Shown: positions 1,753-29,029 of the stretch, in pieces
Numbering within the stretch: position 1 is the stretch's first letter
How the letters are laid out: the number at the start of each line of letters is the position of its first letter
Assembly (NCBI GenBank): GCA_000995965.1
Contig: LBYD01000006.1
Location: forward strand, 1-34,989
From: Candidatus Moranbacteria bacterium GW2011_GWC2_40_12
Lineage (GTDB): Bacteria; Patescibacteriota; Minisyncoccia; Moranbacterales; UBA11712
Direction of reading: 5' to 3'
DNA: 34,989 nt
Program-made: the position numbers and the translations under genes
Notes under the pieces: model-generated
The model's database searches: none
What the model was told of the DNA's origin: nothing
What the model saw: only the letters and a program-made list of their open reading frames with translations

Positions 1753-2421
1753 ATGAGAAAAACACAATTTGCGGAGGGACAATTTTATCACATATATAAC
1801 CGCGGGACAGATAAACGGAAAATTTTTCTTGACGATGCTGATTTTCAGCGATTTCTGCTCTCAATGGAACTGATGAATGACGAGCAAAACGACCTCATGT
1901 CCCAATGGAAAGACTTCAAAACAGCCAACCCGAACGCCGACCTAAACTCTTTTCCAAGACTAAGTCTTGGAAAAAGAAAACCATTGGTTAAATTGGTGTG
2001 TTTTTCCTTGTTGCCAAATCATTATCATTTTATCTTGGAGCAAGCAGCTGAAAAGGGCATCGAAAGGTTTATGCACAGAATTGGCGTGGGTTATTCAATG
2101 TATTTCAATAAAAAATATGATCGAAGCGGAGCGCTCTTTCAAGGAACATTCAAGGCGGCTGAAATCAAGCCGAACAAGCTGCTCTATCTTTCCGCCTACG
2201 TGAACTGCAACGCGGAAATTCACGGAATCGCGCGCTCGGACGCGTACCGCTGGTCGAGCTTTCCGGAATACATCGGGAAAAGAAAAAAGGGTTTGTGCGA
2301 TGAAGGAAAAAAAGCCATCCTCGGCAATTTCCGGGGCGCGGAAGATTATAAAAAGTTTGCCAAAGAAAATGCCAGGCATATGCGCGAAAAAAAACTTGAC
2401 GAAAAAATGATGTTGGAGTGA
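1753..2421 (+). CDS. REP-associated tyrosine transposase (Y1/IS200-like, RAYT family), copy 1
   Basis: 222 aa; MRKTQFAEGQFYHIYNRGTDKRKIF N-terminus, LLPNHYHFIL HUH motif, RSGALFQGTFKA motif. Confidence 0.92.
   Translation: MRKTQFAEGQFYHIYNRGTDKRKIFLDDADFQRFLLSMELMNDEQNDLMSQWKDFKTANPNADLNSFPRLSLGKRKPLVKLVCFSLLPNHYHFILEQAAEKGIERFMHRIGVGYSMYFNKKYDRSGALFQGTFKAAEIKPNKLLYLSAYVNCNAEIHGIARSDAYRWSSFPEYIGKRKKGLCDEGKKAILGNFRGAEDYKKFAKENARHMREKKLDEKMMLE
1950..1974. repeat. Family A palindrome in frame inside RAYT1 (encodes PRLSLG)
   Basis: TTTTCCAAGACTAAGTCTTGGAAAA within codons for SFPRLSLGKRK. Confidence 0.95.
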
Positions 2422-2424
2422 TGA

Positions 2425-2447
2425 TTCCCAAGACTAAGTCTTGGGAA
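2425..2447. repeat. Family A palindrome TTCCCAAGACTAAGTCTTGGGAA (3' flank of RAYT1)
   Basis: Perfect palindrome 3 bp after the RAYT1 stop. Confidence 0.95.
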
Positions 2448-2466
2448 AGAAACTTTAGGAAAAATT

Positions 2467-5400
2467 ATGAAAACTAAACTCAAAGAAATTAAAATTATAG
2501 TTAAATACCTCTTCCGCCATCCGGTACGTTTTTTCTGCGCGCTTGGGGAAACGACGATACCGAGACTAAGTCTTGGGGCGCCCCCAAGACTTAGTCTCGG
2601 TATTGGTATTGGAAAAATTCTTCGCTGGTGCTGGGCGACTCTTCCGCGCCGCGTCGTTTCGACTCTTGTCATTGTCGCGCTCGTCATCGCGCCGGTCTAC
2701 ACAATCTTCTTCGCAGAGAAAGCCCAAGCCGCCTGGTGGAACGACTCCTGGATGTATCGCCAAAAAATCCAGCTCACGAACTCCACCGGCGCCGACCTCA
2801 CGGATTTTCAGGTTTCGACAGTTGTGGACACCGCCGCTCTCATCACCGCCGGGAAAATGATCACCTCCACTTGCGCTGATATGCGCTTCACCGATTCCAA
2901 AGGCCAGCCGCTCGACTACTGGATCGAAGAAAACAACCCGGGCTGCAACAGCGCCACGACCAAAGTTTGGCTGAAAGCCCCCAAAGTCTATTCCGGTACC
3001 AACGCCACCTCTATATATATGTATTACGGAAACCCGAGTGCCATCGCTACCCAATCCGGCGACAAGACTTTCGAGTTTTTTGATGATTTCAACGATGGGA
3101 CAATCAGCGACAAGAAATGGACACAGCACATTCAGGGAGTGGGCGGAACTATCGTGGAGAGTGGAGGGGAGGCGGTACTAGCGCCGACAAATGCGACAAT
3201 TTCCTCGGCGAATTTAAAATCAACGCAAACCTTCACCAATAATGTCGTTATTGAAGTGAGGAGAAAGCAGGCAACTGACAACTATTATATGGACCTTTCA
3301 CTGGGTGTCGGATCCATTGAAGATTTTGATGGTGGTGCGCAAACACAATGGTGGCATACTACATTAGCAAGTGGATATGTGTATGCTTACCAGCAGGCTA
3401 CAAACAGTGGAAATGGACTTTATCGAATGCCGAGTTCGGGTGGTAAAGTTGCCATTAGTACAAACACATTAGCGCTTAATACGTCAACTTATAAGGTTCA
3501 CCGATTTGAGTATAACTCGTCGGGAGGCTTGCGATGGTTAATAGATGGAACTCAATATTTTACTGGAACGGATAGCAATTTTCTCTCTGACAATAAGAAA
3601 ATTTTGGTTAGCCAGGGCGAAATTACCGGTGGCAACGGCGACGCTCAATCCGTCGACTATATCTATGTCCGCAAATACGCCTCCGCCGACCCGACCACTT
3701 CCGCGAGCGCCGAAGAAGTGGGCCCCGGGCCCATTGCCTATTGGAAATTCGACGAAGGGCAGGGGGGAACGGCGTATGATTCAACCGTGAACCACAACAA
3801 CGGAAATCTCGGGGTGGGGTCATCCGCTCCGACTTGGCAACCCGAAAGCAATTGCGTGAGCGGGAAGTGTTTGAGTTTCGATGGAAACGGCGATTTCATT
3901 TCTGTTTCTGACTCAGGCACCAGCGTCCTTGATCAAACTTCGCAAGTTTCGGTTAGCTTCTGGTTCAAGGGAAATGGTGCTTCATGGCCGGATTCTTGGC
4001 AGGGTCTCATTGCGAAAAGAAATAGCCCCGATTATGGAAACTACGGCGTAAATATCAGAGGCGGCGCGACCAATGTCCTGCAGTATTATTTTTATGATGG
4101 GTCTTGGCAAGCTGTTGATATTCCAGCCTCCAATATTTCAACAAATACTTGGCATCATTTTACCGGAACTTTCTCTGATACAGGAGATATTGAAGGCAAA
4201 ATATATATTGATGGAAAACTAATCAAGACAGAGAGTTTTGCAGCGAAAAATCTTATTGCGAATAATGATTCTTTATTTATAGGCGAGTCTTATACAAACT
4301 CGGAATTTTTCAACGGCTCCATCGACGAACCAAAAATATATCCCTACGCCCGCACGGCCTCGCAAATCGCGCAGGACTACAATGCGGGCAAAGCTGGCAA
4401 CGCGAGCCCCGAAGGCGCGAACGTCACTGTCGGTGAATCGCCCAAATGGATGACCGACGGGCTCGTGGGACACTGGAAAATGGATGAATCTTCGGGAACA
4501 GTTGTGGCGGACGCGTCCGGAAACGGAAACACTGGCACGCTCACGAATGCGCAGGAAACGGGAACTGCCGAAGCCGCGAGTACGACGACCGCGGTCTATG
4601 ACGCGGACAATGCCGCGCTTTCAACGACGAACGACGCCTACAACAATATGATCCTGCGCATTTCCCCGGTTTGCGGATCCATTCCGGACGGAACCGAACG
4701 CACCATCACCGACTATGACGGCGCGGGGAAATTCTTCACCGTCGCCGCTCTCCCCGCCGAAGCCGACTCTTGCGCCTTCGAAGTTCGCCACCAGACGGGA
4801 GGGAAGTTTGGGAATGGACTGAAGCTGGGAGGAGACAATGATTATGTTAATGTTGGACAAATTTCGCAGATAACTTCGCCTGCAATGACAATTAGTTTGT
4901 GGGCGAAGGGCACATATGGAGGCGACTGGTGGGGGGGAAATGATACAATATTTTCCATTACTCAAACTTGGACTCGAACAATGATTTATTCTACTGGTGG
5001 CTCACCGAGAGTGCGTCTTGGCATGTCAAATAACAATAGCTATGGATCGTCAAATTTTTCAAACTATAAAGACAATGTCTGGTATAATTATGTAATAGTT
5101 GTTCCTGCAGGAACCGATCAACCAGCGTATTGGTACATAAATGGAAATTTGCAAGAAAAAATGCAGCCGGACAGCGGGGCGGGATGGTTCTATGATTCGA
5201 CGCAGCAGTTTCAGATCAGTAATGGCAATTCGTTTAATGGAAATCTAGATGACGTCCGCATCTACAACCGCGCGCTTTCGCCCGACGAAGTGAAACAGCT
5301 TTCCGAATACGGCCCGGGTCCGGTGGGGTGGTGGAAGATGGATGAGGCTTCTGGTGGAACTGCCTATGATACGAGCGGGAATGGAAACAACGGAACCTGG

Positions 5401-6243
5401 AATGGAACCGGAGGAACGCATTGGGCAAATGGCAAATATGGAAATGCCGCGAATCTGAACGGAGCCGATGATTTTTTGAATGTGTCGGATTCTCAAATAC
5501 TTCGTGTTACAAATAATGTTTCACTTTCAGCCTGGGTCAAAACAACGACTTCTGGCACCTGTGCAAGCGGTTCGGTCGGGGCGAAATGGTATGATACAAG
5601 ATGTCTCAAGGGCATTGTTTCGAGGCAGGCAAGTCCCCAAGAAAATCTCCAGACAATTGGCATAAGCGGAAATGGCCAAGCTGCATTTGAAATAAGCACT
5701 GGCTATTACTGCGGAGATTCTTGCATGTATACTTTGAGATCCGCATCCGCTATTAATGATAATAAATTTCATCACATAGAAGGAACGCTTACTGGAAACA
5801 GCATGAAGCTTTTTGTTGACGGTGTTGTCGTTGGTGAGGCAACGATAGGCTTTGGTATTCCGACGTGCAATTATCCAACACGCATCGGAGCAGGCGGATT
5901 TTATACTGTTTATTATGGTTTTGTGGCTGGTTTAATTGACGATGCAAAAATCTACAATTACGCCCGCACTTCGAAACAAGTTGTCGAAGACATGAACGCC
6001 GGGCATCCGATTGGCGGGAGTCCGGTCGGATCTCCGATGATATATTACAAGTTTGACGTGGGAGTCGGGGGGACAGCTCCGAATTCCGGAAACGGCGGGT
6101 CGGCGCAAAACGGCACGATGACTCCGCAAGGCGGCGGACAGACGCAAACATATCAAATGTGGGACAACGGCGGGAAATGGAGCCGCGCGGCCGACCTCGA
6201 CGGGACGGACGATTATGTGAGCATCCCGGATTTTTCGTATTGA
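2467..6243 (+). CDS. Large secreted DUF2341/LamG (concanavalin A-like) repeat protein, truncated by an insertion in its fourth LamG unit
   Basis: Signal/TM segment ending AEKAQAA, DUF2341-like WWNDSWMYRQKIQLTNSTGADLTDFQV...YMYYGNPSA, then LamG-type repeats (YWKFDEGQGGTAYDST, GHWKMDESSGTVVADASGNGNTG, GWWKMDEASGGTAYDTSGNGNNG, YYKFDVGVGGTAPNSG). ORF stops right after DGTDDYVSIPD. Confidence 0.85.
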   Translation: MKTKLKEIKIIVKYLFRHPVRFFCALGETTIPRLSLGAPPRLSLGIGIGKILRWCWATLPRRVVSTLVIVALVIAPVYTIFFAEKAQAAWWNDSWMYRQKIQLTNSTGADLTDFQVSTVVDTAALITAGKMITSTCADMRFTDSKGQPLDYWIEENNPGCNSATTKVWLKAPKVYSGTNATSIYMYYGNPSAIATQSGDKTFEFFDDFNDGTISDKKWTQHIQGVGGTIVESGGEAVLAPTNATISSANLKSTQTFTNNVVIEVRRKQATDNYYMDLSLGVGSIEDFDGGAQTQWWHTTLASGYVYAYQQATNSGNGLYRMPSSGGKVAISTNTLALNTSTYKVHRFEYNSSGGLRWLIDGTQYFTGTDSNFLSDNKKILVSQGEITGGNGDAQSVDYIYVRKYASADPTTSASAEEVGPGPIAYWKFDEGQGGTAYDSTVNHNNGNLGVGSSAPTWQPESNCVSGKCLSFDGNGDFISVSDSGTSVLDQTSQVSVSFWFKGNGASWPDSWQGLIAKRNSPDYGNYGVNIRGGATNVLQYYFYDGSWQAVDIPASNISTNTWHHFTGTFSDTGDIEGKIYIDGKLIKTESFAAKNLIANNDSLFIGESYTNSEFFNGSIDEPKIYPYARTASQIAQDYNAGKAGNASPEGANVTVGESPKWMTDGLVGHWKMDESSGTVVADASGNGNTGTLTNAQETGTAEAASTTTAVYDADNAALSTTNDAYNNMILRISPVCGSIPDGTERTITDYDGAGKFFTVAALPAEADSCAFEVRHQTGGKFGNGLKLGGDNDYVNVGQISQITSPAMTISLWAKGTYGGDWWGGNDTIFSITQTWTRTMIYSTGGSPRVRLGMSNNNSYGSSNFSNYKDNVWYNYVIVVPAGTDQPAYWYINGNLQEKMQPDSGAGWFYDSTQQFQISNGNSFNGNLDDVRIYNRALSPDEVKQLSEYGPGPVGWWKMDEASGGTAYDTSGNGNNGTWNGTGGTHWANGKYGNAANLNGADDFLNVSDSQILRVTNNVSLSAWVKTTTSGTCASGSVGAKWYDTRCLKGIVSRQASPQENLQTIGISGNGQAAFEISTGYYCGDSCMYTLRSASAINDNKFHHIEGTLTGNSMKLFVDGVVVGEATIGFGIPTCNYPTRIGAGGFYTVYYGFVAGLIDDAKIYNYARTSKQVVEDMNAGHPIGGSPVGSPMIYYKFDVGVGGTAPNSGNGGSAQNGTMTPQGGGQTQTYQMWDNGGKWSRAADLDGTDDYVSIPDFSY
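2557..2603. repeat. Head-to-head pair of family A palindromes, in frame in the LamG gene signal region (IPRLSLGAPPRLSLGI)
   Basis: ATACCGAGACTAAGTCTTGGGG-cgc-CCCCAAGACTTAGTCTCGGTAT: 22-bp perfect arms with a 3-nt centre; each arm contains a palindrome. Confidence 0.93.
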
Positions 6244-6956
6244 GTTTGGGAATTTTGGAAATTTCGGGAGTTTGGGGGTTGGGGAATTTGGTTTTTGAAA
6301 AAATCATGAAAGATCAATATCAACAATTGAATCAAGATCAACCATCGAGGCCCGGTTACGAATACCTGATTGTTTTTATGCTGGGAAAAATCATTCAGGA
6401 TTTGACTGTCCAGTTTTGCAATCGCTGGATCGAAAAACGCAGCCGCACGCACGACCAAATGGTCCAGGCGGCGCGGAGCAATTCGCAAAACATCGCCGAA
6501 GGTTCCACGGGCGAATCTCTCAAAAGCTACATCAAATTGGTGGGAGTGGCGCATGGGTCAAACGAAGAACTGGCGAAAGATTTTCAGGATTTTTTGCGCC
6601 AGCGCAATTTGCCGATCTGGCCGAAGGACCATCCGAAAGTCGCCGAATTTCGGAAGTTTCGGGCATTTTGGGTCGGTCCAACTTCCCTAAATACCCCAAA
6701 TCTCCCCAACGATCCGACCGAAGCCGCGAATTTTTTGTTGACTCTTTGCAGTCTGGAAAGTTTTTTGCTTTCGCGGCATGTCGCGTCGCTCAAGAAAAAA
6801 CACGAAGAAGAAGGCGGCTTCACGGAAAATCTCTATCGAAAAAGGGTTGCGTTTCGGAAAAAAATTGGGGGTTGGGGAAATTCGGGAGGTTGGGGAGTTT
6901 GGGGGATTGTTTTTTTGGGATTTTTGGGAATCATTTTTGGTGCTTTTCCCGTCCGC
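6232..6956 (+). mobile_element. Candidate inserted element carrying a four-helix-bundle protein gene with G/T-rich terminal repeats
   Basis: LamG coding sequence ends at gat (6231, ...YVSIPD) and resumes in another frame at ggc (6957, GTNQSIFTVSVWVKP). GGGAGTTTGGGGGTTGGGGAATTT-type repeats lie at both ends (6247-6295 and 6864-6935). Exact boundaries are approximate. Confidence 0.65.
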
Positions 6957-8744
6957 GGCACGAACCAGTCCATCTTCACCGTCTCCGTCTGGGTGAAGCC
7001 GTCGGGTTCGGCCGTTTCAAAAGCGATTTTGGGAAAAGCCGAGGAATTGCGAGTGGCGACGAACGCTTCGAGCCAGCCGGTGTGCCAGATCAAATCCGGA
7101 GCGGCTTGGCAAACGGCGGCGACGTCTTCGGTGGCGATTTCGGTCGACAGCTGGTCGCATGTTTCCTGCACTTATGACCTCGCTTATGTCCGAATATATG
7201 TCAACGGCGTCGAAAAAGGATCGCAGGCTTTGGCGGTGGCGGCGGACGACACGGCGGCGGTCTGGAAAATCGGCCGGGACGACAGCGCGAGCACGCCCTA
7301 CGGATATTTCGCGGGACAAATCGACGAATACAAATTCTACAACTCCGCTTTGACGGCTGACCAGATCGCGCTCGATATGAATCAGGGCAAAGAAATGCAG
7401 CTCGGCGGACAAATTTCCGCGACAGGCGCGACCGGCCAAGCGGCGGAGTACTGCGTTCCGGGAGACACGACCAGTTGCGCGGGGCCGGTGATGGATTGGA
7501 GCCTGGACGAAAAAACAGGCCAATACGCCTATGACCGGAACGGGGGAAATAACAACGTGACACTCGGCTCCGGATCAGGCGCTGACGACTATGATCCCGT
7601 CTGGCAGGGTTCCTCGCAATGCAAAACAGGCAGCTGCCTGCGCTTTGACGGAAGCAATGACTATTCGTCTTTCAGCACGACCGGCATGAGCGTGAGCGCC
7701 GGAACTGTTTCGCTTTGGGTGAATTATTCAAGGGAAAGCGGATGGCAGCAGTTTTTTTGCCATCGCTATTCCGAGAGCCGTATCTATGTCGGCGTTCGGG
7801 GCACTACAAATCTGCTCTGGACCAGGCTTGGCACGAGCGCTGACGAATTCAGCGTGGAGTTGACGGAAAATGTTTGGCATCAGGTTTTTTTGACCTGGAA
7901 CGGCGGAAGCTTCGCCACATATCTTGACGGGACACAGGTTGATTCGGGTTCCTACTCGGGACTGGCTTTCTTGGGCAGTTGCGCCGGATTGGGAGATTAC
8001 AACATCGATTGCGCGTCATTTAACACATTGGATCAAAATTTGAACGGCAATCTGGATAATGTCAAAGTATACAACTACGCCCGCACGCCCGCCCAAATCG
8101 CCTGGGACTATAACCGCGGGAAGCCCGTCGGGCATTGGAAACTGGACGAAGGCGAAGGCGACAAGGCCTACGATTCCTCCGGCAACGGGAACATTGGAAC
8201 CCTCACCACCATGGACCCGCCGAACGATTGGGTGGATGGAAAATTTGGGAAGGCGTTGGATTTTGACGGGGAGAGTGATTATGTTATTCTCTCCGATCCA
8301 ACAGGGTTGACGGATAAAGTGACTGTTTCGGCTTGGATAAAAATGGGCGTGGCCGACCCAGGAGCTTCTCACGCAGTCAGTTATCATCCCGGCTTTTATA
8401 TTTCCGGAAATGATACGACTGATAACATGAGATTTTGCATCAATCAAACGAATTGCGCTAATTTCGACTCTTTCTCCAGTTTGGGAACGGGATCATGGCA
8501 TCATTATGTCGGGGTTTATGACGGGAGCCAAGTCAGGACATACTTAGACGGTCAATATAAGAATTTTGTAAACACAAGCGGAAATATTGATACAACTGGA
8601 GACTTTCGGTTTGGGAAATATTGGAATGGAAGTTATTATTGGACCGGCCAGATCGACGACGTCCGCGTCTACAACTACGCCCTCACTGCCGAGCAAATTA
8701 AGCAAGTTATGAATGAAGGCAGCGCGATAAGATTTGGCGACTAA
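6306..8744 (+). CDS. Four-helix-bundle (S23/4HB-suffix-like) protein, reading frame continuing through a hydrophobic repeat-encoded linker into the remaining LamG repeats
   Basis: ATG 6306 MKDQYQQLNQDQPSRPGYEYLIVFMLGKIIQDLTVQFCNRWI...DQMVQAARSNSQNIAEGS...SLKSYIKLVGVAHGSNEELAKDF; no stop before LamG segments (GTNQSIFTVSVWVKP, MDWSLDEKTGQYAYDRNG, GHWKLDEGEGDKAYDSSGNGNIG) up to 8744. Whether the fusion is translated as one protein is unknown. Confidence 0.6.
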   Translation: MKDQYQQLNQDQPSRPGYEYLIVFMLGKIIQDLTVQFCNRWIEKRSRTHDQMVQAARSNSQNIAEGSTGESLKSYIKLVGVAHGSNEELAKDFQDFLRQRNLPIWPKDHPKVAEFRKFRAFWVGPTSLNTPNLPNDPTEAANFLLTLCSLESFLLSRHVASLKKKHEEEGGFTENLYRKRVAFRKKIGGWGNSGGWGVWGIVFLGFLGIIFGAFPVRGTNQSIFTVSVWVKPSGSAVSKAILGKAEELRVATNASSQPVCQIKSGAAWQTAATSSVAISVDSWSHVSCTYDLAYVRIYVNGVEKGSQALAVAADDTAAVWKIGRDDSASTPYGYFAGQIDEYKFYNSALTADQIALDMNQGKEMQLGGQISATGATGQAAEYCVPGDTTSCAGPVMDWSLDEKTGQYAYDRNGGNNNVTLGSGSGADDYDPVWQGSSQCKTGSCLRFDGSNDYSSFSTTGMSVSAGTVSLWVNYSRESGWQQFFCHRYSESRIYVGVRGTTNLLWTRLGTSADEFSVELTENVWHQVFLTWNGGSFATYLDGTQVDSGSYSGLAFLGSCAGLGDYNIDCASFNTLDQNLNGNLDNVKVYNYARTPAQIAWDYNRGKPVGHWKLDEGEGDKAYDSSGNGNIGTLTTMDPPNDWVDGKFGKALDFDGESDYVILSDPTGLTDKVTVSAWIKMGVADPGASHAVSYHPGFYISGNDTTDNMRFCINQTNCANFDSFSSLGTGSWHHYVGVYDGSQVRTYLDGQYKNFVNTSGNIDTTGDFRFGKYWNGSYYWTGQIDDVRVYNYALTAEQIKQVMNEGSAIRFGD

Positions 8745-8746
8745 CT

Positions 8747-8769
8747 TGACGAGAGCTCAACTCTCGTCA
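8747..8769. repeat. Family B palindrome (5' flank of RAYT2), TGACGAGAG-ctcaa-CTCTCGTCA
   Basis: 9-bp inverted arms, 5-nt centre, 3 bp after the LamG stop. Confidence 0.93.
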
Positions 8770-8781
8770 TAGAATAGAAGC

Positions 8782-9456
8782 ATGAGAAAAACGCAATTTT
8801 CTTCCAATAATTTTTATCATATCTACAATCGCGGCGTGGACAAACGCAATGTTTTTTCAGACGAAGCTGATTTCTTCCGTTTTTACGTCTCGATGTGGCT
8901 ATTGAATGATTCGCGCGACGGAATTATGGATGTGTGGAAGAATTATAAAAGAGACAATACCCACCCCGCCTTCGGCGATTTCTTGCGACGAGAGTTGAGC
9001 TCTCGTCAACCAATTGTTAATATTATTAGTTATTGCCTAAATCCAAATCACTATCATTTTATCCTTGAGCAGGTCGTGGATGGCGGAATTGAAAAATTTA
9101 TGCATAAAATTGGAACCAGTTATACAAATTATTTCAATAAAAAAAACAAACGAAGCGGATCTTTGTTTCAAGGACGCTTCAAGTCAGCTCAAATAAAACC
9201 AAACGCTCTCCTTTATATCTCCTCTTATGTGAATTGCAACAGCGAAATTCACGGAGTCGCGAAAGCCGAAAATTATCGCTGGTGCAGCTTCCCGGATTAT
9301 ATTGGAAAAAGAAAGGATAAATTATGCTTCAAAAGAGTGATACTTTCTGATTTCAAGAGCGGGAAAGACTATTTCGAGTTTGCAAAAGAAAATATGAAAG
9401 CGCAGAAACAAAAAAAGGAAGATGAAAAACTTCTTTTGGAATCCGACGAGAGTTGA
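8782..9456 (+). CDS. REP-associated tyrosine transposase, copy 2
   Basis: 224 aa; MRKTQFSSNNFYHIYNRGVDKRNVF, CLNPNHYHFIL HUH motif, KRSGSLFQGRFKSAQIK. Its TGA stop lies inside the 3' family B palindrome. Confidence 0.92.
   Translation: MRKTQFSSNNFYHIYNRGVDKRNVFSDEADFFRFYVSMWLLNDSRDGIMDVWKNYKRDNTHPAFGDFLRRELSSRQPIVNIISYCLNPNHYHFILEQVVDGGIEKFMHKIGTSYTNYFNKKNKRSGSLFQGRFKSAQIKPNALLYISSYVNCNSEIHGVAKAENYRWCSFPDYIGKRKDKLCFKRVILSDFKSGKDYFEFAKENMKAQKQKKEDEKLLLESDES
8987..9007. repeat. Family B palindrome in frame inside RAYT2 (RRELSSRQ)
   Basis: GACGAGAGTTGAGCTCTCGTC. Confidence 0.95.
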
Positions 9457-9479
9457 GCTCTCGTCAAAGCTCTCGTCAA
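9445..9479. repeat. Family B palindrome plus a duplicated 3' half
   Basis: GACGAGAGTTGAGCTCTCGTC followed by AAAGCTCTCGTCAAAG. Confidence 0.92.
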
Positions 9480-10921: not shown

Positions 10922-10949
10922 GTTTTTTAGGAGAATTTGCCAAAGTTCT

Positions 10950-10992
10950 CCTAACATTCAATGTTGGGAGCGTCCCAACATTGAATGTTAGG
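10950..10992. repeat. Family E paired palindrome between atpE and atpF
   Basis: CCTAACATTCAATGTTGGGA-gcg-TCCCAACATTGAATGTTAGG, 20-bp perfect inverted arms. Confidence 0.95.
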
Positions 10993-11005
10993 ATAAATCA
11001 AATTT

Positions 11006-11499: not shown

Positions 11500-11542
11500 T
11501 CAACATTCAATGTTGGGAGCGTCCCAACATTCAATGTTGGGA
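11500..11542. repeat. Family E paired palindrome between atpF and atpH
   Basis: TCAACATTCAATGTTGGGA-gcg-TCCCAACATTCAATGTTGGGA. Confidence 0.93.
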
Positions 11543-11552
11543 CAGTTGAGCA

Positions 11553-11979: not shown

Positions 11980-13557
11980 ATGCAAAAAGATTTTATCATC
12001 GAGACTCTCAAAAAACAAATTGACGGCTTCAAGGCCGAAACGAAGTCCGAAAAAGTCGGGCGCGTCATTGAAGTGGGGGACGGAATCGCCCGGGTTTCGG
12101 GCCTTTCGGACGCGATGGCGAGCGAAATGCTGGAATTCCTGCCCGCCGAGGCCTCAGTGAAGGCGGGTGCCTCCTCGGTTTTCGGAGTCGCTCTCAACCT
12201 TGAAGAAGATCAGGTCGGAGCGATGATTTTGGGGGAATATGAAAAAATCAAAGAAGGGGACACGGTGAAATCGACCGGAAAAATTCTGTCGGTGCCGGTC
12301 GGGGAAATGATGATTGGACGGGTGATAAGCCCGCTGGGAGAGGCGATTGACGGCAAAGGCATTATACTCGCGAATGAGGAGCGAATGACAGCGAATAAGA
12401 GCGAATTGAAATTCTACCCCATTGAAAAAATCGCTCCGGGCGTCATCGAACGCGAATCAGTGAAACAGCCGCTCCAGACCGGAATCAAAGCGATTGATTC
12501 GGTGATCCCGATCGGGCGGGGACAAAGAGAACTCATCATCGGCGACCGGCAGACGGGGAAAACGGCCGTCGCGGTTGACGCGATCATCAATCAAAAAGAC
12601 GAAGACGTGATCTGCATATATGTCGCGATCGGCCAGAAAGAATCCAAAGTCGCCCGCATCGTGGCGGAGCTGGAAAAAAATGACGCAATGAATCACACGA
12701 TTGTGGTTGTGGCGGGGGCCTCGGATCCGGCCGCCCTTTCTTTCATCGCACCCTATGCCGGATGTGCCATCGGAGAATTTTTCATGGATCAGGGGAAAGA
12801 CGTGCTGGTGATATATGACGATCTTTCCAAGCACGCTTGGGCCTATCGCCAGGTATCCCTTCTTCTCAAGCGCCCGCCGGGACGCGAAGCTTATCCGGGA
12901 GACATATTTTATCTTCATTCGCGTCTTTTGGAACGGAGCGCGAAACTATCCAAGGATTTTGGCGGCGGATCACTGACCGCGCTTCCAATCATTGAAACGC
13001 AGGCCGGGGATGTGAGCGCCTACATCCCGACCAATGTCATTTCCATCACGGACGGACAAATTTATTTGGAGTCGGATCTTTTTTACAAAGGGATTCGGCC
13101 GGCCCTGAATGTCGGGCTTTCAGTATCGCGCGTGGGATCGGCGGCGCAAATCAAGGCAATGAAAAAAGTGGCCGGAAAACTGCGGCTGGATCTTGCCCAA
13201 TTCCGCGAGCTCGAAGCTTTTGCCCAGTTTGGATCGGACCTTGATGAAGCGACCAGAAAACAAATCGAACGCGGCCAGCGGACGGTTGAAATTTTGAAGC
13301 AGGACCAGTATGTGCCGATGCCGGTTGAGAACCAAGTGGCAATTCTTTTTGCGCTAACGAACGGATATTTGGACGATGTTTCCGTCGAAAAAGTTCAAAA
13401 ATGGGAAGAAGATTTTCATAAATATATGAAGGATATGAAGAGCGATGTGCTGGCGATGATAAAAGAAAAAAAAGAATTGACAGAGGAAGTGGAGAGCGCG
13501 CTCAAAAAAGCGATTGAAGAATACAAAGAAGTTTATGGAAATAATGGAGTTTCCTAA
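11980..13557 (+). CDS. atpA: F1Fo ATP synthase subunit alpha
   Basis: 525 aa; [20 protein letters not shown]-loop, [39 protein letters not shown]. Confidence 0.97.
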
Positions 13558-13597
13558 AGTTAAACTTTAGGAGCTCCTAAAGTTTAACTTTAGGAAA
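13550..13597. repeat. 48-bp perfect palindrome (paired family D) between atpA and atpG
   Basis: TTTCCTAAAGTTAAACTTTAGGAGCTCCTAAAGTTTAACTTTAGGAAA is identical to its reverse complement. Confidence 0.97.
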
Positions 13598-18229: not shown

Positions 18230-20743
18230 ATGGAGAAATATAATCCTCAAGAAATCGAGAAAAAATGGCAAAAATACTGGGCGGACTATCCCGAACTTTT
18301 CGAAGCGGATGAGAAGCCGGAAAAGGCCAAATTCTATTGCCTCGATATGTTTCCCTATCCGTCCGGAGACGGGCTTCATGTCGGGCACGTGGAAGGTTAT
18401 ACCGCTTCGGACATTTATTCGCGTTATCAGCGGATGAATGGGAAGAATATTTTGCACCCGATAGGCTGGGATGCTTTCGGTCTGCCGGCGGAAAATTTTG
18501 CCATCAAGTCCGGAGTTCAACCGGCTGAGTCAACCCAAAAAAATATCAAAACTTTTACGGAGCAGATCAAGAGCCTCGGGCTTTCCTATGACTGGTCGCG
18601 CGAGATCGACACATCAAGTCCGGAATACTACAAGTGGACCCAGTGGTTCTTTTTATTTTTGCATGAAAACGGCCTGGCGTACCGGAAATATGCCAAAGTG
18701 AACTGGTGCGAATCGTGCAAAACAGTTCTCGCGAATGAGCAAGTTGAAGACGGAGTTTGCGAACGCTGCAAAAATGAAGTGATCCAGAAAGATATGGAGC
18801 AGTGGTTTTTCAAGATTACGGATTTTGCGGAAGATTTGATAAAGGATCTCGACAAATTGGACTGGCCGGAATCGACTAAGACGGCGCAGAAAAACTGGAT
18901 CGGCAAAAGCGAGGGAGCGGTGATCAAGTTCAAAGTTCAAAGTGAAAAGTTGAAAGTTGTGGGAGATTACTTTTTGGAAACTTTTACCACGAGATTGGAT
19001 ACTATTTATGGCTGCACCTATTGCGTTGTGGCGCCGGAACACAAAGTCTTGGAAGAAACAAGAAATGAGATAGAAAATATTGAGGAAATTGATAAATATA
19101 TAAATCAGGCCAAAAAGAAAACCGATCTTCAGCGGACGGATCTTCAGAAGGAAAAAACGGGAGTGGAAATAAAAGGCATGAAAGCCGTCAATCCCTTCAC
19201 GAAAGAAGAAGTCCCGATTTTCGTGGCTGATTACGTGCTTTCTACCTATGGAACCGGCGCGGTGATGGCTGTCCCGGCGCATGACGAACGGGACTTTGAG
19301 TTCGCGAAAAAGTACAATTTGCCGATAAAAAATGTGATTCTTCCAAAAAAATTATTAGAGATACCAAGAAACATGGAAGATATAGCAGCCGGCGCCAAAA
19401 CAGAACTGCGAGTCGAATCCGAATGCTTTACGTGTGATGGAGAATTGATTAATTCCGGTAAATATTCCAATCTCGCATCCGAAAAAGCCCGCGAGGAGAT
19501 GGCGAAGTGGCTTGAGAAAAATAATTTGGGCGGGAAAAAGATAACCTACAAATTGCGGGACTGGCTGATTTCGCGGCAAAGATATTGGGGCGCGCCAATA
19601 CCCGTCATTTATTGCAAAAATTGTTCTACCCTAGAGCTGAGCTCTAGGGTCGTTCCTATTCCGGAAAATGATTTGCCGGTTTTGCTTCCGGAAGTGAAAG
19701 ATTATCGCCCGAAAGGAACGTCGCCGCTGGAGACGAATCCCTCATTTGTGAACGTGAAATGCCCGAAGTGCGGCGGGAGTGCGAAACGCGAAACAGACAC
19801 AATGGACACGTTCGTTTGTTCAAGCTGGTATTTTTTCCGGTTCGCGGATCCGGGGAACAAAAAAGAATTCGCCGCGAAAGAGAAAATCAAAAAATGGCTG
19901 CCAGTTGATCTTTATATCGGCGGCAAAGAGCACACGGTTCTTCATTTGCTGTATTCCCGATTTTTCACGAAGGCTTTGCATAAATTCGGCTATATCGATT
20001 TTGACGAGCCGTTCACGAAGTTGCGCCATCAGGGAATCGTCCTTGCTGAAGACGGACGGAAAATGTCGAAGTCTCTGGGGAACGTCATCAATCCCGATGA
20101 AATAGTGGAAAAATACGGCGCGGATGTTTTGCGGCTGTATGAAATGTTCATGGGCCCGCTGGAGGACTCAAAAGCGTGGAATACGAAAAGCATAATCGGG
20201 CTAAAAAGATTTTTGGAAAGAGTATGGCGCTTAAAATCCCAAATCCCCGCTGACGCCAAAGCTTTGGCGGGCAAGCAAAATCCGAAACTTAATTCTTTTT
20301 TACACAAAACTATCAAAAAAGTCACCGAAGATATTGAAAATTTGCGCTTCAATACCGCGATTTCCGCAATGATGATGCTGGTTAATGAAATGGAAAAAGA
20401 AAATAATATTCCAATTACCAATTACCAATTACTAATTACTATTCTCGCTCCCTTTGCTCCCCACATTGCCGAAGAAATCTGGTCGAGTCTCGGCCACAAA
20501 AACTCTGTTTTCCTCGAAAAATGGCCGGAGCATGATATAGAGTTGATAAAAGATGAGGAAATCACAATCATTGTCCAAATCAACGGAAAAATGCGGGACC
20601 AGCTGAAGCTGGCGGCGGGCGCGGGCGAGGAGGATGTGAAAAAAATGGCGCTCGAAAGCGGGAAAGTGAAGAAATATGTTGAAGGGAAAAATATCCGGAA
20701 AATTATATTCGTGAAAGACAGACTGATTAATTTCGTAATCTGA
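18230..20743 (+). CDS. leuS: Leucyl-tRNA synthetase, with an in-frame palindrome-encoded peptide
   Basis: MFPYPSGDGLHVGHVEGYTASDI (HIGH), GWDAFGLPAENFAI, GRKMSKSLGNVINPDEIV (KMSKS). Confidence 0.97.
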   Translation: MEKYNPQEIEKKWQKYWADYPELFEADEKPEKAKFYCLDMFPYPSGDGLHVGHVEGYTASDIYSRYQRMNGKNILHPIGWDAFGLPAENFAIKSGVQPAESTQKNIKTFTEQIKSLGLSYDWSREIDTSSPEYYKWTQWFFLFLHENGLAYRKYAKVNWCESCKTVLANEQVEDGVCERCKNEVIQKDMEQWFFKITDFAEDLIKDLDKLDWPESTKTAQKNWIGKSEGAVIKFKVQSEKLKVVGDYFLETFTTRLDTIYGCTYCVVAPEHKVLEETRNEIENIEEIDKYINQAKKKTDLQRTDLQKEKTGVEIKGMKAVNPFTKEEVPIFVADYVLSTYGTGAVMAVPAHDERDFEFAKKYNLPIKNVILPKKLLEIPRNMEDIAAGAKTELRVESECFTCDGELINSGKYSNLASEKAREEMAKWLEKNNLGGKKITYKLRDWLISRQRYWGAPIPVIYCKNCSTLELSSRVVPIPENDLPVLLPEVKDYRPKGTSPLETNPSFVNVKCPKCGGSAKRETDTMDTFVCSSWYFFRFADPGNKKEFAAKEKIKKWLPVDLYIGGKEHTVLHLLYSRFFTKALHKFGYIDFDEPFTKLRHQGIVLAEDGRKMSKSLGNVINPDEIVEKYGADVLRLYEMFMGPLEDSKAWNTKSIIGLKRFLERVWRLKSQIPADAKALAGKQNPKLNSFLHKTIKKVTEDIENLRFNTAISAMMMLVNEMEKENNIPITNYQLLITILAPFAPHIAEEIWSSLGHKNSVFLEKWPEHDIELIKDEEITIIVQINGKMRDQLKLAAGAGEEDVKKMALESGKVKKYVEGKNIRKIIFVKDRLINFVI
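19628..19650. repeat. Family C palindrome in frame inside leuS (TLELSSRV)
   Basis: ACCCTAGAGCTGAGCTCTAGGGT, perfect 23-bp palindrome around a central G. Confidence 0.97.
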
Positions 20744-22735: not shown

Positions 22736-24091
22736 ATGAAACTATTCGGAACAGACGGCATTCGAGGAGTTGCCGGCGGAGAAAAAATGAATCCGGAAGT
22801 TGTTGCGGCGTTCGGAAGATCGATTGTTTCTTTTTGCCGGAAAAGAAATCTTCCGGAAAAAATAATTGTCGGAAGAGACACGCGTGAGTCAGGTTTGATG
22901 TTTGAAGAGGCGCTTGTCGCGGGAATATCTTCAGCCGGTGGCGAAGCGGCTGTCGCGGGAATTTTGCCGACCCCGGCTCTGGCCTTCCTCATCAAAGAGC
23001 AAAGGGCGGGGGCGGGGATCGTGATTTCAGCCTCGCACAATCCCTTTCAGGACAACGGCCTAAAGCCTTTCAAAAATGACGGCACAAAGCTTTCGGAAGA
23101 GGAAGAAAAAGAACTTGAAGGATATATATTGAAAAAAATATCATCAGGCACAAATGACAACATTTCAGGAAAGAGTTCTGTAGTGCAGGAAGCCAAAGAA
23201 AAGTATATAAAGTTTTTTTTGGATAAAACCAGTTATTTTTTTACCCTAGAGCTCAGCTCTAGGGTAAAAAAGCGACTAGTTCTTGACTGCGCGAACGGCG
23301 CCACTTTTGAAGTTGCTCCGGCGATATTTGAAAAAATTGCCAAAGAGACAGGGTTGATCAACGCAAATCCTGACGGAACAAATATCAACAAAAATTGCGG
23401 TTCCCAGCATCCGGAAAGTTTGAAAAGAGAAGTTCTCGCGAAAAAAGCGGATTTGGGCCTTGCTTTTGACGGTGACGGGGACCGGGTCATTGCGGTCGAT
23501 GAAAAAGGAAACGCGCTGACAGGCGACCAGATGATGTATGTCATTGCAAAATTTTTGAAGGAAAAAGGGAAACTCAAAAATAATTTGGTTGTGACGACTG
23601 TCATGAGCAATCTCGGATTCGTTGGCGCGCTAAGCAAATTGGGGATCGGACATATCGCCACGGGGGTGGGGGACCGGCAGGTATTTTTTGAAATGAAAAA
23701 TAAAGGCGCGATTTTGGGGGGCGAAGAATCCGGCCATATCATTTTTTTTGATTTTTGTCCGACTGGTGACGGGATCATCGGGGGTTTGATGCTACTCGCG
23801 GCCATGAGCCATTTCAAAAAACCGCTTTCGGAGCTGGCGGAAGAGGTCGCTCTTTTCCCCAAGTTATTGGTCAATGTGGAAGTAAAAAGCAAGCCGGATA
23901 TTGGCTCAATTTCGGAAATTCAGGATATAATAAAGAAAGTGGAAAAAAAGCTTGGAAAAGAAGGACGCGTTCTTGTCCGCTATTCCGGAACGGAAAATTT
24001 GTGCAGGGTGATGGTGGAGGGGAGGGATGAGGGCGAGATTCGCGCTTTTGCCGATGCTATAGCAAAAAAAATTAAAAAACATTTGGGCTAA
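22736..24091 (+). CDS. glmM: Phosphoglucosamine mutase, with an in-frame palindrome-encoded peptide
   Basis: MKLFGTDGIRGVAG, VISASHNPFQDNGLKPF catalytic Ser loop, DGDGDRVIAVDEKG, VRYSGTENLCRVMVEG. Confidence 0.94.
   Translation: MKLFGTDGIRGVAGGEKMNPEVVAAFGRSIVSFCRKRNLPEKIIVGRDTRESGLMFEEALVAGISSAGGEAAVAGILPTPALAFLIKEQRAGAGIVISASHNPFQDNGLKPFKNDGTKLSEEEEKELEGYILKKISSGTNDNISGKSSVVQEAKEKYIKFFLDKTSYFFTLELSSRVKKRLVLDCANGATFEVAPAIFEKIAKETGLINANPDGTNINKNCGSQHPESLKREVLAKKADLGLAFDGDGDRVIAVDEKGNALTGDQMMYVIAKFLKEKGKLKNNLVVTTVMSNLGFVGALSKLGIGHIATGVGDRQVFFEMKNKGAILGGEESGHIIFFDFCPTGDGIIGGLMLLAAMSHFKKPLSELAEEVALFPKLLVNVEVKSKPDIGSISEIQDIIKKVEKKLGKEGRVLVRYSGTENLCRVMVEGRDEGEIRAFADAIAKKIKKHLG
23237..23271. repeat. 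Family C palindrome in frame inside glmM (TLELSSRV), inverted orientation
   Basis: TTTTTTACCCTAGAGCTCAGCTCTAGGGTAAAAAA, 35-bp perfect palindrome. Confidence 0.97.
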
Positions 24092-26038: not shown

Positions 26039-26045
26039 GACAGTC

Positions 26046-26096
26046 TACCCTAGAGCTGAGCTCTAGGGTAGGTTTTAGCTCTAGGGTAGGTTTTAG
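26046..26096. repeat. Family C palindrome plus tandem duplicated half (5' flank of RAYT3)
   Basis: TACCCTAGAGCTGAGCTCTAGGGTA then GGTTTT-AGCTCTAGGGTA-GGTTTT. Confidence 0.93.
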
Positions 26097-26107
26097 GGAA
26101 AATAAAA

Positions 26108-26767
26108 ATGAGGAAAATACAATTTGCAAACGGGGAATATTACCATTTATATAATAGAGGAGTAGATAAGAGGAGAATCTTTCAAGACAGTCGTGATTTT
26201 GAAAGATTTCTGTTGTCAATGGATTTGCTTAGTGACCAAAATGACGGGCTGATGATTGCCTGGAGAGATTATAAGGAAAATAATCCCGAAGCTGAACTTC
26301 CGGACTTTCCCTTACTCAAGAAAAAAAGAAAAAAATTAGTTGAATTTGTATGTTATTGCCTGAATCCGAATCATTATCATCTCGTCGTCAAACAATTAGA
26401 TGAAAGAGGAATAGAAAGATTCATGCATAAACTAGGGACAAGTCACACTAATTATTTCAACACGAAGAATAAACGAACCGGTGCTCTATTTCAAGGAAGA
26501 TTCAAAGCAATCCGCATAAAATCCAACTCCAAGCTATTGTATCTTTCGGCTTATGTGAATATGAATCATTTCATACACGGATTTAGGCAAAAGGAATGGA
26601 AATACTCAAGCCTTTTAGAATATCTCGGAAAGCGAAAGAGTGGTCTGTGCAACAAAAAGATCATCATGGGACAATTTGAAGATATTGCCGATTATAAAAA
26701 ATTTCTTGACGAAAACGCTATATATATGAAAGAAAAAAAAGAAGATGAAAAATACTTACTCGAATAA
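26108..26767 (+). CDS. REP-associated tyrosine transposase, copy 3
   Basis: 219 aa; MRKIQFANGEYYHLYNRGVDKRRIF, CLNPNHYHLVV HUH motif, KRTGALFQGRFKAIRIK. Confidence 0.92.
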   Translation: MRKIQFANGEYYHLYNRGVDKRRIFQDSRDFERFLLSMDLLSDQNDGLMIAWRDYKENNPEAELPDFPLLKKKRKKLVEFVCYCLNPNHYHLVVKQLDERGIERFMHKLGTSHTNYFNTKNKRTGALFQGRFKAIRIKSNSKLLYLSAYVNMNHFIHGFRQKEWKYSSLLEYLGKRKSGLCNKKIIMGQFEDIADYKKFLDENAIYMKEKKEDEKYLLE

Positions 26768-28217
26768 TCTTACCCTAGAGCTGAGCTCTAGGGTAAAGAA
26801 AGGAAAACTTCATACACTTTCCGAGTTTCGGCGCGAGGTTGGAATTCCCCTTATACTTGCCAAAAAAATGGTTATTTGGGGTGAAGTAAAAGCCACAAAA
26901 TTGGTTGATGGAACGATCCAAGTCACTGAAGAAGAAGTCGTCAAGATAAAAAATCTTCTCGCGAACCGCTGGACACGGGCCCGGTATTTTCTGCGCGCGC
27001 TTGGTCCGGGGCTGATCACCGGAGCGTCGGATGATGATCCGTCCGGGATCGGAACATATTCATCAGTCGGGGCGATGTTCGGATACGCGATTCTCTGGAC
27101 GGCGGCCTGGCTGCTGCCGATGATGCTGGCGGTGCAGGAAGCCTCTGCGCGGATTGGAATCGTGACAAACAGGGGTCTCGCGGGAGTTTTGCAAAAACAT
27201 TACCGAAAAAAAATTGTGGCGGGAATTGTTTTGCTGCTCATCATCGCCAACGTAGCCAACATCGGAGCCAATCTCGGGGCGATGGCGGCTTCGCTCAAGA
27301 TGCTGACGGGCGTGAACCTTTATCTCGCGGCGATTATCTTCGCGCTCGCCATCATTTCAATGGAAATATTTTTTCAATATCATATTTATGCGCGGGTTCT
27401 GAAATGGCTCACGATTTCGGTTTTGGCCTATATCTTTGCCGGCTTTATGGCGCATCCCGACTGGCGTGAAGTTTTTCGATACGCGTTCATTCCAAATATC
27501 GAGTTGAATCGAAATTATATGTTCGCCCTAATTGCCATTTTCGGGACAACCATCACGCCCTATCTTTTTTTCTGGCAGGCTTCCGAGGAAGTTGAGGAAA
27601 ATAAGCTGATAAAATCAAAGCCGGCTGGAAAGTCGTTTCTGCATCTGCGGATCAGGCATATGAGGACGGACGTCGGGACGGGAATGATTTTGGCGAACGC
27701 CGTTTTCTTCTTCATCATAATCGCGACGGCGCAGGTTTTTTTCAAAAATGGCATCACGGAAATCGGTTCGGCAGAACAGGCGGCCCTGGCCCTAAGGCCT
27801 CTTTCCGGTGAAGCGGCTTATCTTCTTTTCGCTCTCGGGATCATTGGGACGGGACTGCTTGCCGTTCCGATTCTGGCCGGGTCGGGCGCATATGCGCTTT
27901 GCGAAGTAATGAAGTGGCACGAGGGCCTTGAACTCCGTTTTTCGCGAGCGCGCGGCTTTTATCTGATCATAATATTTTCAATTCTGGTGGGGCTGGGACT
28001 CAATTTCATCGGAGTGAATCCGATCAAGGCCCTCTATTACTCCGCATACTTAAACGGCATTATCGCCCTTCCGCTTCTCGCGACAATCATGGTTGTTGGA
28101 AACGACAAGCGCATCATGGGCGTTGAAACGCATCCGGGCTGGGTCAAGATATTTGGCTGGGCGAGTGTCGCATTTATGGTTGCGGCAATTTTCATCTCCA
28201 TAATCCTCATATTTTGA
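26745..28217 (+). CDS. NRAMP-like divalent metal transporter with N-terminal HTH-like extension; N-terminus encoded partly by family C palindrome
   Basis: GPGLITGASDDDPSGIGTYSSVGAMFGYAILWT, ALIAIFGTTITPYLFFWQASEEVEE, ~11 hydrophobic segments; N-terminal LSEFRREVGIPLILAKKMVIWGEVKATKLVDGTIQVTEEEVVKI. Confidence 0.82.
   Translation: MKNTYSNNLTLELSSRVKKGKLHTLSEFRREVGIPLILAKKMVIWGEVKATKLVDGTIQVTEEEVVKIKNLLANRWTRARYFLRALGPGLITGASDDDPSGIGTYSSVGAMFGYAILWTAAWLLPMMLAVQEASARIGIVTNRGLAGVLQKHYRKKIVAGIVLLLIIANVANIGANLGAMAASLKMLTGVNLYLAAIIFALAIISMEIFFQYHIYARVLKWLTISVLAYIFAGFMAHPDWREVFRYAFIPNIELNRNYMFALIAIFGTTITPYLFFWQASEEVEENKLIKSKPAGKSFLHLRIRHMRTDVGTGMILANAVFFFIIIATAQVFFKNGITEIGSAEQAALALRPLSGEAAYLLFALGIIGTGLLAVPILAGSGAYALCEVMKWHEGLELRFSRARGFYLIIIFSILVGLGLNFIGVNPIKALYYSAYLNGIIALPLLATIMVVGNDKRIMGVETHPGWVKIFGWASVAFMVAAIFISIILIF
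26770..26796. repeat. Family C palindrome, 3' flank of RAYT3, in frame in the NRAMP-like ORF (TLELSSRV)
   Basis: TTACCCTAGAGCTGAGCTCTAGGGTAA. Confidence 0.96.
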
Positions 28218-29029
28218 TGACTATTTTTCATTCTCTGATTCTCGGAATAATTCAAGGAGCGGCAGAATTTTTGCCGGTTTCAAGTTCAGCGCATTTGATT
28301 TTGGCGCCGTGGCTCTTCCATTTTCCCGATCCGGGACTTTCATTTGATGTGGCGCTTCATTTCGGGACGCTCATCGCCGTCGTTTTGTATTTTTGGAAAG
28401 ATTGGGTGGAGATTTTCAAAGTTACCGTTGTTCCTAAAGTTAAACTTTCGGAACAATTCCTAAAGTTTAACTTTAGGAAAGAGATGCTGTGGCTTTTGAT
28501 TCTCTCCACTATTCCCGGGATTCTCGCCGGATATTTTCTGGAAAGCTTTGCCGAGACAACTTTTCGCTCGCCGATTCTGGTCGCGTTCACTTTGAGCGCG
28601 GTGGGCCTGATTTTATACCTCGTCGACAAATATCACCGGCATCGGAAAAAGCTGAACCAAATAACTTGGACGGACAGCCTGCTCATCGGCCTCTCGCAGG
28701 CACTCGCGATTGTTCCGGGCGTGTCCCGGTCCGGCGCGACAATCACAACCGGTTTGGCATTGGGACTGAACCGGGAATCAGCGGCGCGGTTTTCATTTCT
28801 TCTCTCGACTCCCATCATTTTCGGCGCGGCGGCGTTCAACTTTCCAGGCCTGCTCGAATCCGGCTTTGACGCGAATATAATTTTGGGAATGCTTTCCGCG
28901 GCCGCGAGCGGATACCTCGCCATAAAATATCTTTTGAAATTTGTCGAGCGAAAAGGCTACGCCATTTTTTTCTGGTACCGGCTGGCATTGGCCGCGGCGA
29001 TTCTATCCGCCATATATTTTCAGGGATAA
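28217..29029 (+). CDS. uppP: Undecaprenyl-diphosphatase, with an in-frame pair of family D palindromes
   Basis: LILGIIQGAAEFLPVSSSAHLIL, LALVPGVSRSGATITTGL-type motif (ALAIVPGVSRSGATITTGLALGLNRESAARFSFLLSTP); start overlaps preceding stop (TGATG). Confidence 0.94.
   Translation: MTIFHSLILGIIQGAAEFLPVSSSAHLILAPWLFHFPDPGLSFDVALHFGTLIAVVLYFWKDWVEIFKVTVVPKVKLSEQFLKFNFRKEMLWLLILSTIPGILAGYFLESFAETTFRSPILVAFTLSAVGLILYLVDKYHRHRKKLNQITWTDSLLIGLSQALAIVPGVSRSGATITTGLALGLNRESAARFSFLLSTPIIFGAAAFNFPGLLESGFDANIILGMLSAAASGYLAIKYLLKFVERKGYAIFFWYRLALAAAILSAIYFQG
28431..28480. repeat. Paired family D palindromes inside uppP, first unit one substitution from perfect
   Basis: TTCCTAAAGTTAAACTTTcGGAA-caa-TTCCTAAAGTTTAACTTTAGGAAA. 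Confidence 0.93.

Follow-up and report, generated by a model that had tools for sequence, protein, structure and literature searches.

Why should a transposase gene carry, in frame within its own coding sequence, a copy of the palindrome that lies on either side of it? The question is raised by a 34,989-nt stretch of DNA from Candidatus Moranbacteria bacterium GW2011_GWC2_40_12 (LBYD01000006.1, positions 1 to 34,989; hereafter the window), which is contig 6 of a 1.14 Mb genome and has its best outside relatives in Candidatus Moraniibacteriota (Patescibacteria). The window encodes three REP-associated tyrosine transposases (RAYTs; REP, repetitive extragenic palindrome), here called RAYT1 to RAYT3. 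RAYT1 is flanked by palindrome A and RAYT2 by palindrome B, and each gene holds a further, cognate copy in the part that encodes the loop ahead of the HUH motif (site 1). In known RAYTs (PMC2817692, PMC8266576), palindromes of this kind are the hairpin substrates of the enzyme, and the inner copy is therefore most simply read as a third cis site. The sequence comparisons reported here suggest that it probably is one, and that either the action of the enzyme or selection keeps it matched to the other two.

Inner palindromes in RAYT1 and RAYT2

The features concerned are listed below, palindromes being given without strand.

1723-1745: palindrome A, upstream copy; its 3' edge lies 7 nt ahead of the RAYT1 ATG
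1753-2421, plus strand: RAYT1, 222 aa, Y1_Tnp (PF01797) HUH transposase (Pfam 8.5e-6, above cut-off); NHYH at 2017-2028
1950-1974: palindrome A, inner copy, in frame in RAYT1 (SFPRLSLGK), site 1, residues ~66-74
2425-2447: palindrome A, downstream copy, 3 nt past the RAYT1 stop codon
8747-8769: palindrome B, upstream copy, inverted relative to the inner and downstream B copies
8782-9456, plus strand: RAYT2, 224 aa, Y1_Tnp (Pfam 1.6e-7, above cut-off); NHYH at 9046-9057
8987-9007: palindrome B, inner copy, in frame in RAYT2 (LRRELSSRQ), site 1
9445-9465: palindrome B, downstream copy, containing the RAYT2 stop codon

The core of palindrome A is CCAAGACTAAGTCTTGG, of which three cognate copies lie at RAYT1. 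Palindrome B, GACGAGAGTTGAGCTCTCGTC, is imperfect, with a single non-Watson-Crick pair (T.G) that is identical in all three copies. When up to three mismatches are allowed, the chance matches expected in the window number 0.04 for A and 0.00 for B. A sequence-only reading of this DNA had already placed inner copies of A at 1950-1974 and of B at 8987-9007, and both positions are borne out, each with a cognate copy on both sides of the gene. The same reading held that the copies sit at a fixed distance from the HUH motif. They do occupy one loop, within two codons of each other, but the distance from palindrome centre to the N codon of NHYH is not strictly constant (55 nt in RAYT1, 49 nt in RAYT2). 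RAYT3 lacks an inner palindrome, as had also been claimed; what had been overlooked is that a third palindrome of its own, C, flanks it on both sides.

26045-26071: palindrome C, upstream of RAYT3, family ACCCTAGAGCTGAGCTCTAGGGT
26108-26767, plus strand: RAYT3, 219 aa, Y1_Tnp above the Pfam cut-off, with DFPLLKKKRKK and no inner palindrome at site 1
26770-26796: palindrome C, downstream of RAYT3, family ACCCTAGAGCTGAGCTCTAGGGT, close to the start of an Nramp-like open reading frame (ORF) at 26745-28217

The enzymes and their relatives

All three window genes exceed the cut-off for Y1_Tnp, and N89-H90-x-H92, Y149 and N153 are invariant among 110 homologues. On the NCBIfam model REP_Tyr_transpos (NF047646), however, the three score 21-28 bits and do not reach the cut-off of 80, which makes them divergent RAYT-like relatives rather than equivalogs by that model. 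A sequence search of the PDB (one protein or profile) yielded no true relative, whereas a fold search succeeded: the predicted structure of RAYT1 (mean pLDDT 93.9) has as its top PDB match 4er8, the complex of TnpA_REP with a REP hairpin (E 6.9e-6; TM 0.65 on target length). Sequence identity to solved IS200/IS605 structures is ~10%.

The wider comparison draws on 185 distinct homologous genes, 174 of them usable. Their genomes are mostly metagenome assemblies, and since the homologues are related, the counts given below are not independent events. Flank palindromes accompany 135 of the 174 and change along with the protein. Of the 45 loci whose copies could be oriented, 26 have inverted and 19 direct flanks, the cores being nearly symmetrical. 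A search for a conserved non-palindromic tag beside the palindromes gave none.

A conserved address among homologues

Inner palindromes scoring at least 8 number 132, compared with 11-19 in synonymous-codon shuffles, and they concentrate 100 to 44 nt ahead of HUH (site 1) and 210-240 nt beyond HUH, past the catalytic tyrosine (site 2). With the flank core as probe (at most 3 of 17 mismatches, so that only near matches are found), the 135 genes with a flank palindrome show a cognate core at site 1 in 78 cases (61 perfect), at site 2 in 20, at either in 84, and in the rest of the gene in one. Foreign flank cores match at site 1 in 6 of ~400 trials (~1%). An approach blind to the flanks gave the same picture: 77 of the 86 site-1 palindromes have a 9-mer in common with their own flanks, as against 2-5% for the flanks of homologues below 70% identity. 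The sequence-only reading had raised the prospect that homologues would show the inner palindrome at random positions, or mismatched to the flanking one; neither was found. Double inverted units (REPIN-like; REPIN, REP doublet forming hairpin) occupy site 1 in 26 of 149 RAYTs and mostly match the flanks. Decayed copies and some double ones (L036, L185) are missed by the palindrome caller, so occupancy is underestimated.

The density of cognate copies bears on a first alternative, namely that palindromes hop at random, mostly nearby, and persist only in permissive loops. In the RAYT1 model, site 1 comprises residues 66-74, between helix 48-58 and strand 79-86, which runs on to HUH, with a short helical turn predicted at 68-71; site 2 comprises residues ~157-166, past helix 153-156. 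Both are loop regions, as this alternative would have it, and the protein accordingly tolerates palindromes there. Yet local hopping predicts many copies in the tolerant DNA nearby, whereas cognate copies number 11.7 per kb at site 1, 3.9 at site 2, 5.0 in the upstream 200 nt, 7.4 at the downstream end, and 0.03-0.15 at 100-1500 nt away, ~100-fold fewer than at site 1. Tolerance alone is therefore insufficient, and local hopping as the sole cause is rejected on the scarcity of cognate copies at 100-1500 nt. Furthermore, the other palindrome families of a genome should enter the loop equally, yet inner copies are almost always cognate.

The placement of the flanks suggests a second alternative. 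In 76 loci, 75 upstream, 80 inner and 73 downstream cognate copies were counted, the upstream copy ending a median of 15 nt ahead of the start codon and the downstream copy starting a median of 3.5 nt past the stop. With flanks so close, all three copies are probably transcribed, and a hairpin-binding protein would have three possible points of action on the gene or transcript that encodes it. The RAYT might then lower its own expression by binding the leader, inner and 3' copies of its palindrome in the gene or mRNA, with selection keeping the inner copy cognate. The recurrence of the inner copy throughout the order and in other classes of Patescibacteria would fit such autoregulation, as would the behavior of a related element, ISPpu9, whose expression is controlled by leader mRNA structure (PMC8450116). 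Some RAYTs, however, have no inner copy to bind.

Constraint on the DNA

The site-1 cognate palindromes fall in every codon phase (29/25/24) and encode unrelated peptides; on the phase counts, a constraint on frame or peptide is rejected. In homologues that share a register (55-65% protein identity), DNA identity within the palindrome is 0.67, relative to 0.66-0.68 around it, and base pairing is still 94-100%. In a set of 59 palindromes, 97.6% of positions paired and double changes numbered 184, compared with 53 on shuffling, but this set had been picked as palindromic. A fairer test is provided by 29 genes with identical NRG-NHYH spacing, taken irrespective of palindromes, in which address -55 has a mean Watson-Crick pairing of 0.72; over all addresses in the same genes the mean is 0.27 (standard deviation 0.08), and the second best reaches 0.54. 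Together, the three codon phases and the compensatory changes indicate that the constraint acts on the DNA and not on the peptide.

These data weigh heavily on the idea that the inner palindrome matters through its encoded peptide, for example as a specificity loop contacting DNA. The site-1 loop does adjoin the HUH strand in the RAYT1 model, but the phase data contradict a peptide role, and the peptides vary between families; within one register, moreover, amino-acid identity in the palindrome falls below that around HUH even as pairing is retained. We consider this explanation very improbable. A constraint on an mRNA hairpin with G-U wobbles is likewise unsupported, given that no G-U excess was found on the coding strand of the inner copies (11 G.T versus 16 A.C mismatches); the lack of any such RNA-specific sign also speaks against autoregulation through the transcript.

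Concerted change of inner and flanking copies

A quick tree of 149 RAYTs, built with both loops excluded, is rough and does not distinguish gain from loss. On this tree, at least 26 changes are counted in site-1 occupancy, at least 18 in phase or single/double form (within occupied genes) and at least 44 in palindrome family, so that the address is conserved and its content rewritten. The families found at site 1 number 36 in the 86-palindrome set, or 28 by looser linkage. For example, the inner copies of L120 and L121 (77% identity) differ by four core bases and their flanks differ likewise, and L023 and L002 (79% identity) show a concerted difference in the inner copy and one flank. The proposal of the sequence-only reading that the site is replaced whenever specificity changes gains good support from such joint changes at many levels of divergence, from the 28-36 families at one site and from the repeated shifts of phase and form. 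The frequent changes of occupancy, like the use of every codon phase, are also what random insertion into a permissive loop would produce.

RAYTs and palindrome families across the genome

The genome has seven intact RAYTs and one remnant, together with seven different palindrome families, one per RAYT. Six of the seven RAYTs carry an inner cognate copy. It lies at site 1 in five, namely RAYT1 (A), RAYT2 (B), L002 (F), L003 (E) and L117 (H), and at site 2 in L004 (G); RAYT3 (C) has flank palindromes only. L002, L003, L117 and L004 are further RAYTs on contig 1, built alike. With at most 1-2 mismatches, the genome holds 9-11 copies of A, 3 of B, ~12 of C, ~20 of E, 4 of F, ~18 of G and 12 of H. 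The high copy number and mainly extragenic location of classical REPs are thus not seen, there being 3 to ~20 copies per family and several within genes.

Since all three copies of B lie within the RAYT2 module, the inner B copy is not a stray from a dispersed population, which is a further difficulty for random insertion. Nor does copy number track the inner copy (C, without one, ~12; G, with one, ~18; B, with one, 3), contrary to what autoregulation would lead one to expect. All in all, we regard autoregulation as unlikely, if the most credible of the alternatives weighed here. The second proposal of the sequence-only reading, that the palindrome may have a role such as self-recognition or autoregulation, would be compatible with the data. 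A separate candidate role, that of a brake on spreading, was rejected because copy number in this genome shows no trend with the presence of an inner copy.

Degenerate genes were seen as well. The RAYT remnant at L119:850-1085 (G000:C1:304349-304584) has stops, its start coincides exactly with a perfect inner palindrome E, and palindromes of several families lie on either side of it, and L191 is truncated exactly at its inner double palindrome. These two cases, which are no proof, hint that palindromes can serve as breakpoints. In the pseudogenes L196 and L198, the inner and flank palindromes are both gone.

Palindromes inside other genes

Several palindromes of the window lie in unrelated protein genes and provide a comparison.

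19628-19650: palindrome C in the leucyl-tRNA synthetase (LeuRS) gene, in frame (TLELSSRV), sporadic
23237-23271: palindrome C in glmM, in frame, absent in three orthologues
28457-28479: palindrome E in a uppP-like gene, in frame; this is the family of the L003 RAYT, and the copy belongs to an E pair at 28433-28479

LeuRS orthologues carry palindromes in four of eight genomes, of differing families and in differing places, twice at one editing-domain position. Specifically, L200 and L201, the LeuRS genes of two related genomes, have different palindromes, single and double, at one spot directly ahead of LEVFTTRLDTI. Among the orthologues compared, only this genome has the GlmM palindrome. In-frame entry into LeuRS and GlmM, and the presence of different palindromes at one LeuRS position in two lineages, would fit random insertion. 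These insertions are not conserved in relatives, however, and random insertion fits the RAYT genes poorly; we think it quite unlikely to explain them. As far as sequence comparison goes, the LeuRS and GlmM copies follow the sporadic pattern of intragenic REPs and of Rickettsia palindromic elements, i.e., in-frame palindromes scattered among orthologues, and the RAYT inner copies behave otherwise, being conserved in place.

Other palindromes and genes of the window

Beyond RAYT1, a double inverted palindrome A, REPIN-like, lies at 2557-2603, its halves separated by GGGGCGCCCC; it is in frame in the ORF after RAYT1 (IPRLSLGAPPRLSLG). Palindrome E, the family of the RAYT L003 on contig 1, forms an inverted pair at the end of atpA (13550-13597). 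A further family, CCAACATTCAATGTTGG, is present as inverted pairs at 10949-10993 and 11502-11543, in the gaps between ATP synthase operon genes. This genome showed no RAYT with CCAACATTCAATGTTGG-type flanks, and similar ones occur at L012, L016 and L031 of related genomes; the palindromes are possibly orphan copies. Finally, a long LamG-like ORF at 6159-8744 contains G-rich repeats at 6242-6290 and 6840-6935. Near its start, between these repeats, ~6308-6890 appears to resemble a separate four-helix-bundle protein, and this stretch may have been inserted into the LamG reading frame or be fused with it.

A probable third cis site

The module is ordered as palindrome, start codon, N-terminal half, inner palindrome in the pre-HUH loop (or in the second loop past the catalytic tyrosine), catalytic half, stop and palindrome. 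By analogy with known RAYTs, the palindromes would fold, as single strands, into hairpins for the enzyme to bind and cut; the inner copy lies where the protein tolerates any peptide. The three copies would stay identical because one enzyme sees all three. Their likeness could result from cleavage by the RAYT and transfer of strands (or conversion) from one copy to another, or from selection for binding, and a drift in the specificity of the enzyme would lead to all three sites being rewritten together. Both the binding of the inner copy by the RAYT and the way in which the copies are kept alike are what we infer from the sequences.

Three observations weigh against the inner copy as a third cis site. 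First, RAYT3 has none and its palindrome C still reaches ~12 copies genome-wide, which means that an inner copy is not essential for spread. Second, ~50 of the 149 homologues have no site-1 palindrome that could be recognized by a caller that misses some. Third, GTAG within 20 nt of a palindrome is rare, at 6 of 59 inner, 3 of 62 upstream and 8 of 63 downstream copies.

Relation to known systems

RAYT-REP coevolution, intragenic REPs and the presence of several REPtrons per genome are already known. The REPtrons of Proteobacteria (Nunvar 2010, PMC2817692; NAR 2021, PMC8266576) consist of an HUH Y1 transposase gene with flanking palindromes that coevolve with the protein; group 3 RAYT enzymes are described there as using perfect palindromes. 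The present system shares with them the gene with its flanking, coevolving palindromes, the occurrence of several REPtrons in one genome with a palindrome specific to each, and the 4er8 fold. It differs in the third cognate copy at a conserved address within the coding sequence, in the mostly absent GTAG head, in 3-20 genomic copies versus >100, and possibly in the orientation of the flanks, which are inverted at 26 of 45 informative loci. The same two papers, as far as they were searched, make no mention of an inner copy. E. coli K-12 rayT has no inner REP and no 10-mer in common with its flanking REPs.

Intragenic REPs and Rickettsia palindromic elements are short in-frame palindromes in unrelated protein genes (GTAG/CGTC repeat survey 2013, PMC3733652), and the palindromes in LeuRS, GlmM and the uppP-like gene resemble them. 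Those elements are sporadic and variably located, whereas the RAYT inner copy is cognate, conserved in position and subject to rewriting along with the flanks. REPINs and bacterial interspersed mosaic elements (BIMEs) are doubled inverted palindromes, dispersed elements duplicated by RAYTs (PMC3116915, PMC8049555). The double units at site 1 and at 2557-2603 are like them, but REPINs have been described as dispersed and not, as here, embedded in the transposase gene. The IS200/IS605 elements (IS608, ISDra2, ISPpu9) likewise combine an HUH enzyme with hairpins, which in their case lie at the element ends, and in some of these elements mRNA structure limits expression. To our knowledge, these hairpins sit at the ends or in the leader and not in frame within tnpA. 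A search of open-licence papers found no earlier description of a cognate, in-frame palindrome at a conserved address in RAYT genes.

Significance

These findings bear on the role of RAYTs for their hosts and on the joint change of enzyme and palindrome specificity. More tentatively, Patescibacterial RAYTs may be self-addressed, in that the gene carries the hairpin of its own enzyme, and action in cis would either control expression or integrity or template the rewriting of all cognate palindromes, specificity being inherited with the ORF; we hold this to be plausible rather than probable. Autoregulation, self-limitation and enzyme-substrate linkage are candidate advantages of the inner copy. 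A mobile substrate embedded in frame within the very gene that encodes its enzyme, and rewritten with the flanks, would make autoregulation, self-limitation and concerted evolution directly testable. Dozens of enzyme-palindrome pairs are available in one homologous protein scaffold, and because a copy at a constant place in the gene labels each pair, covariation of palindrome with protein could reveal the specificity code.

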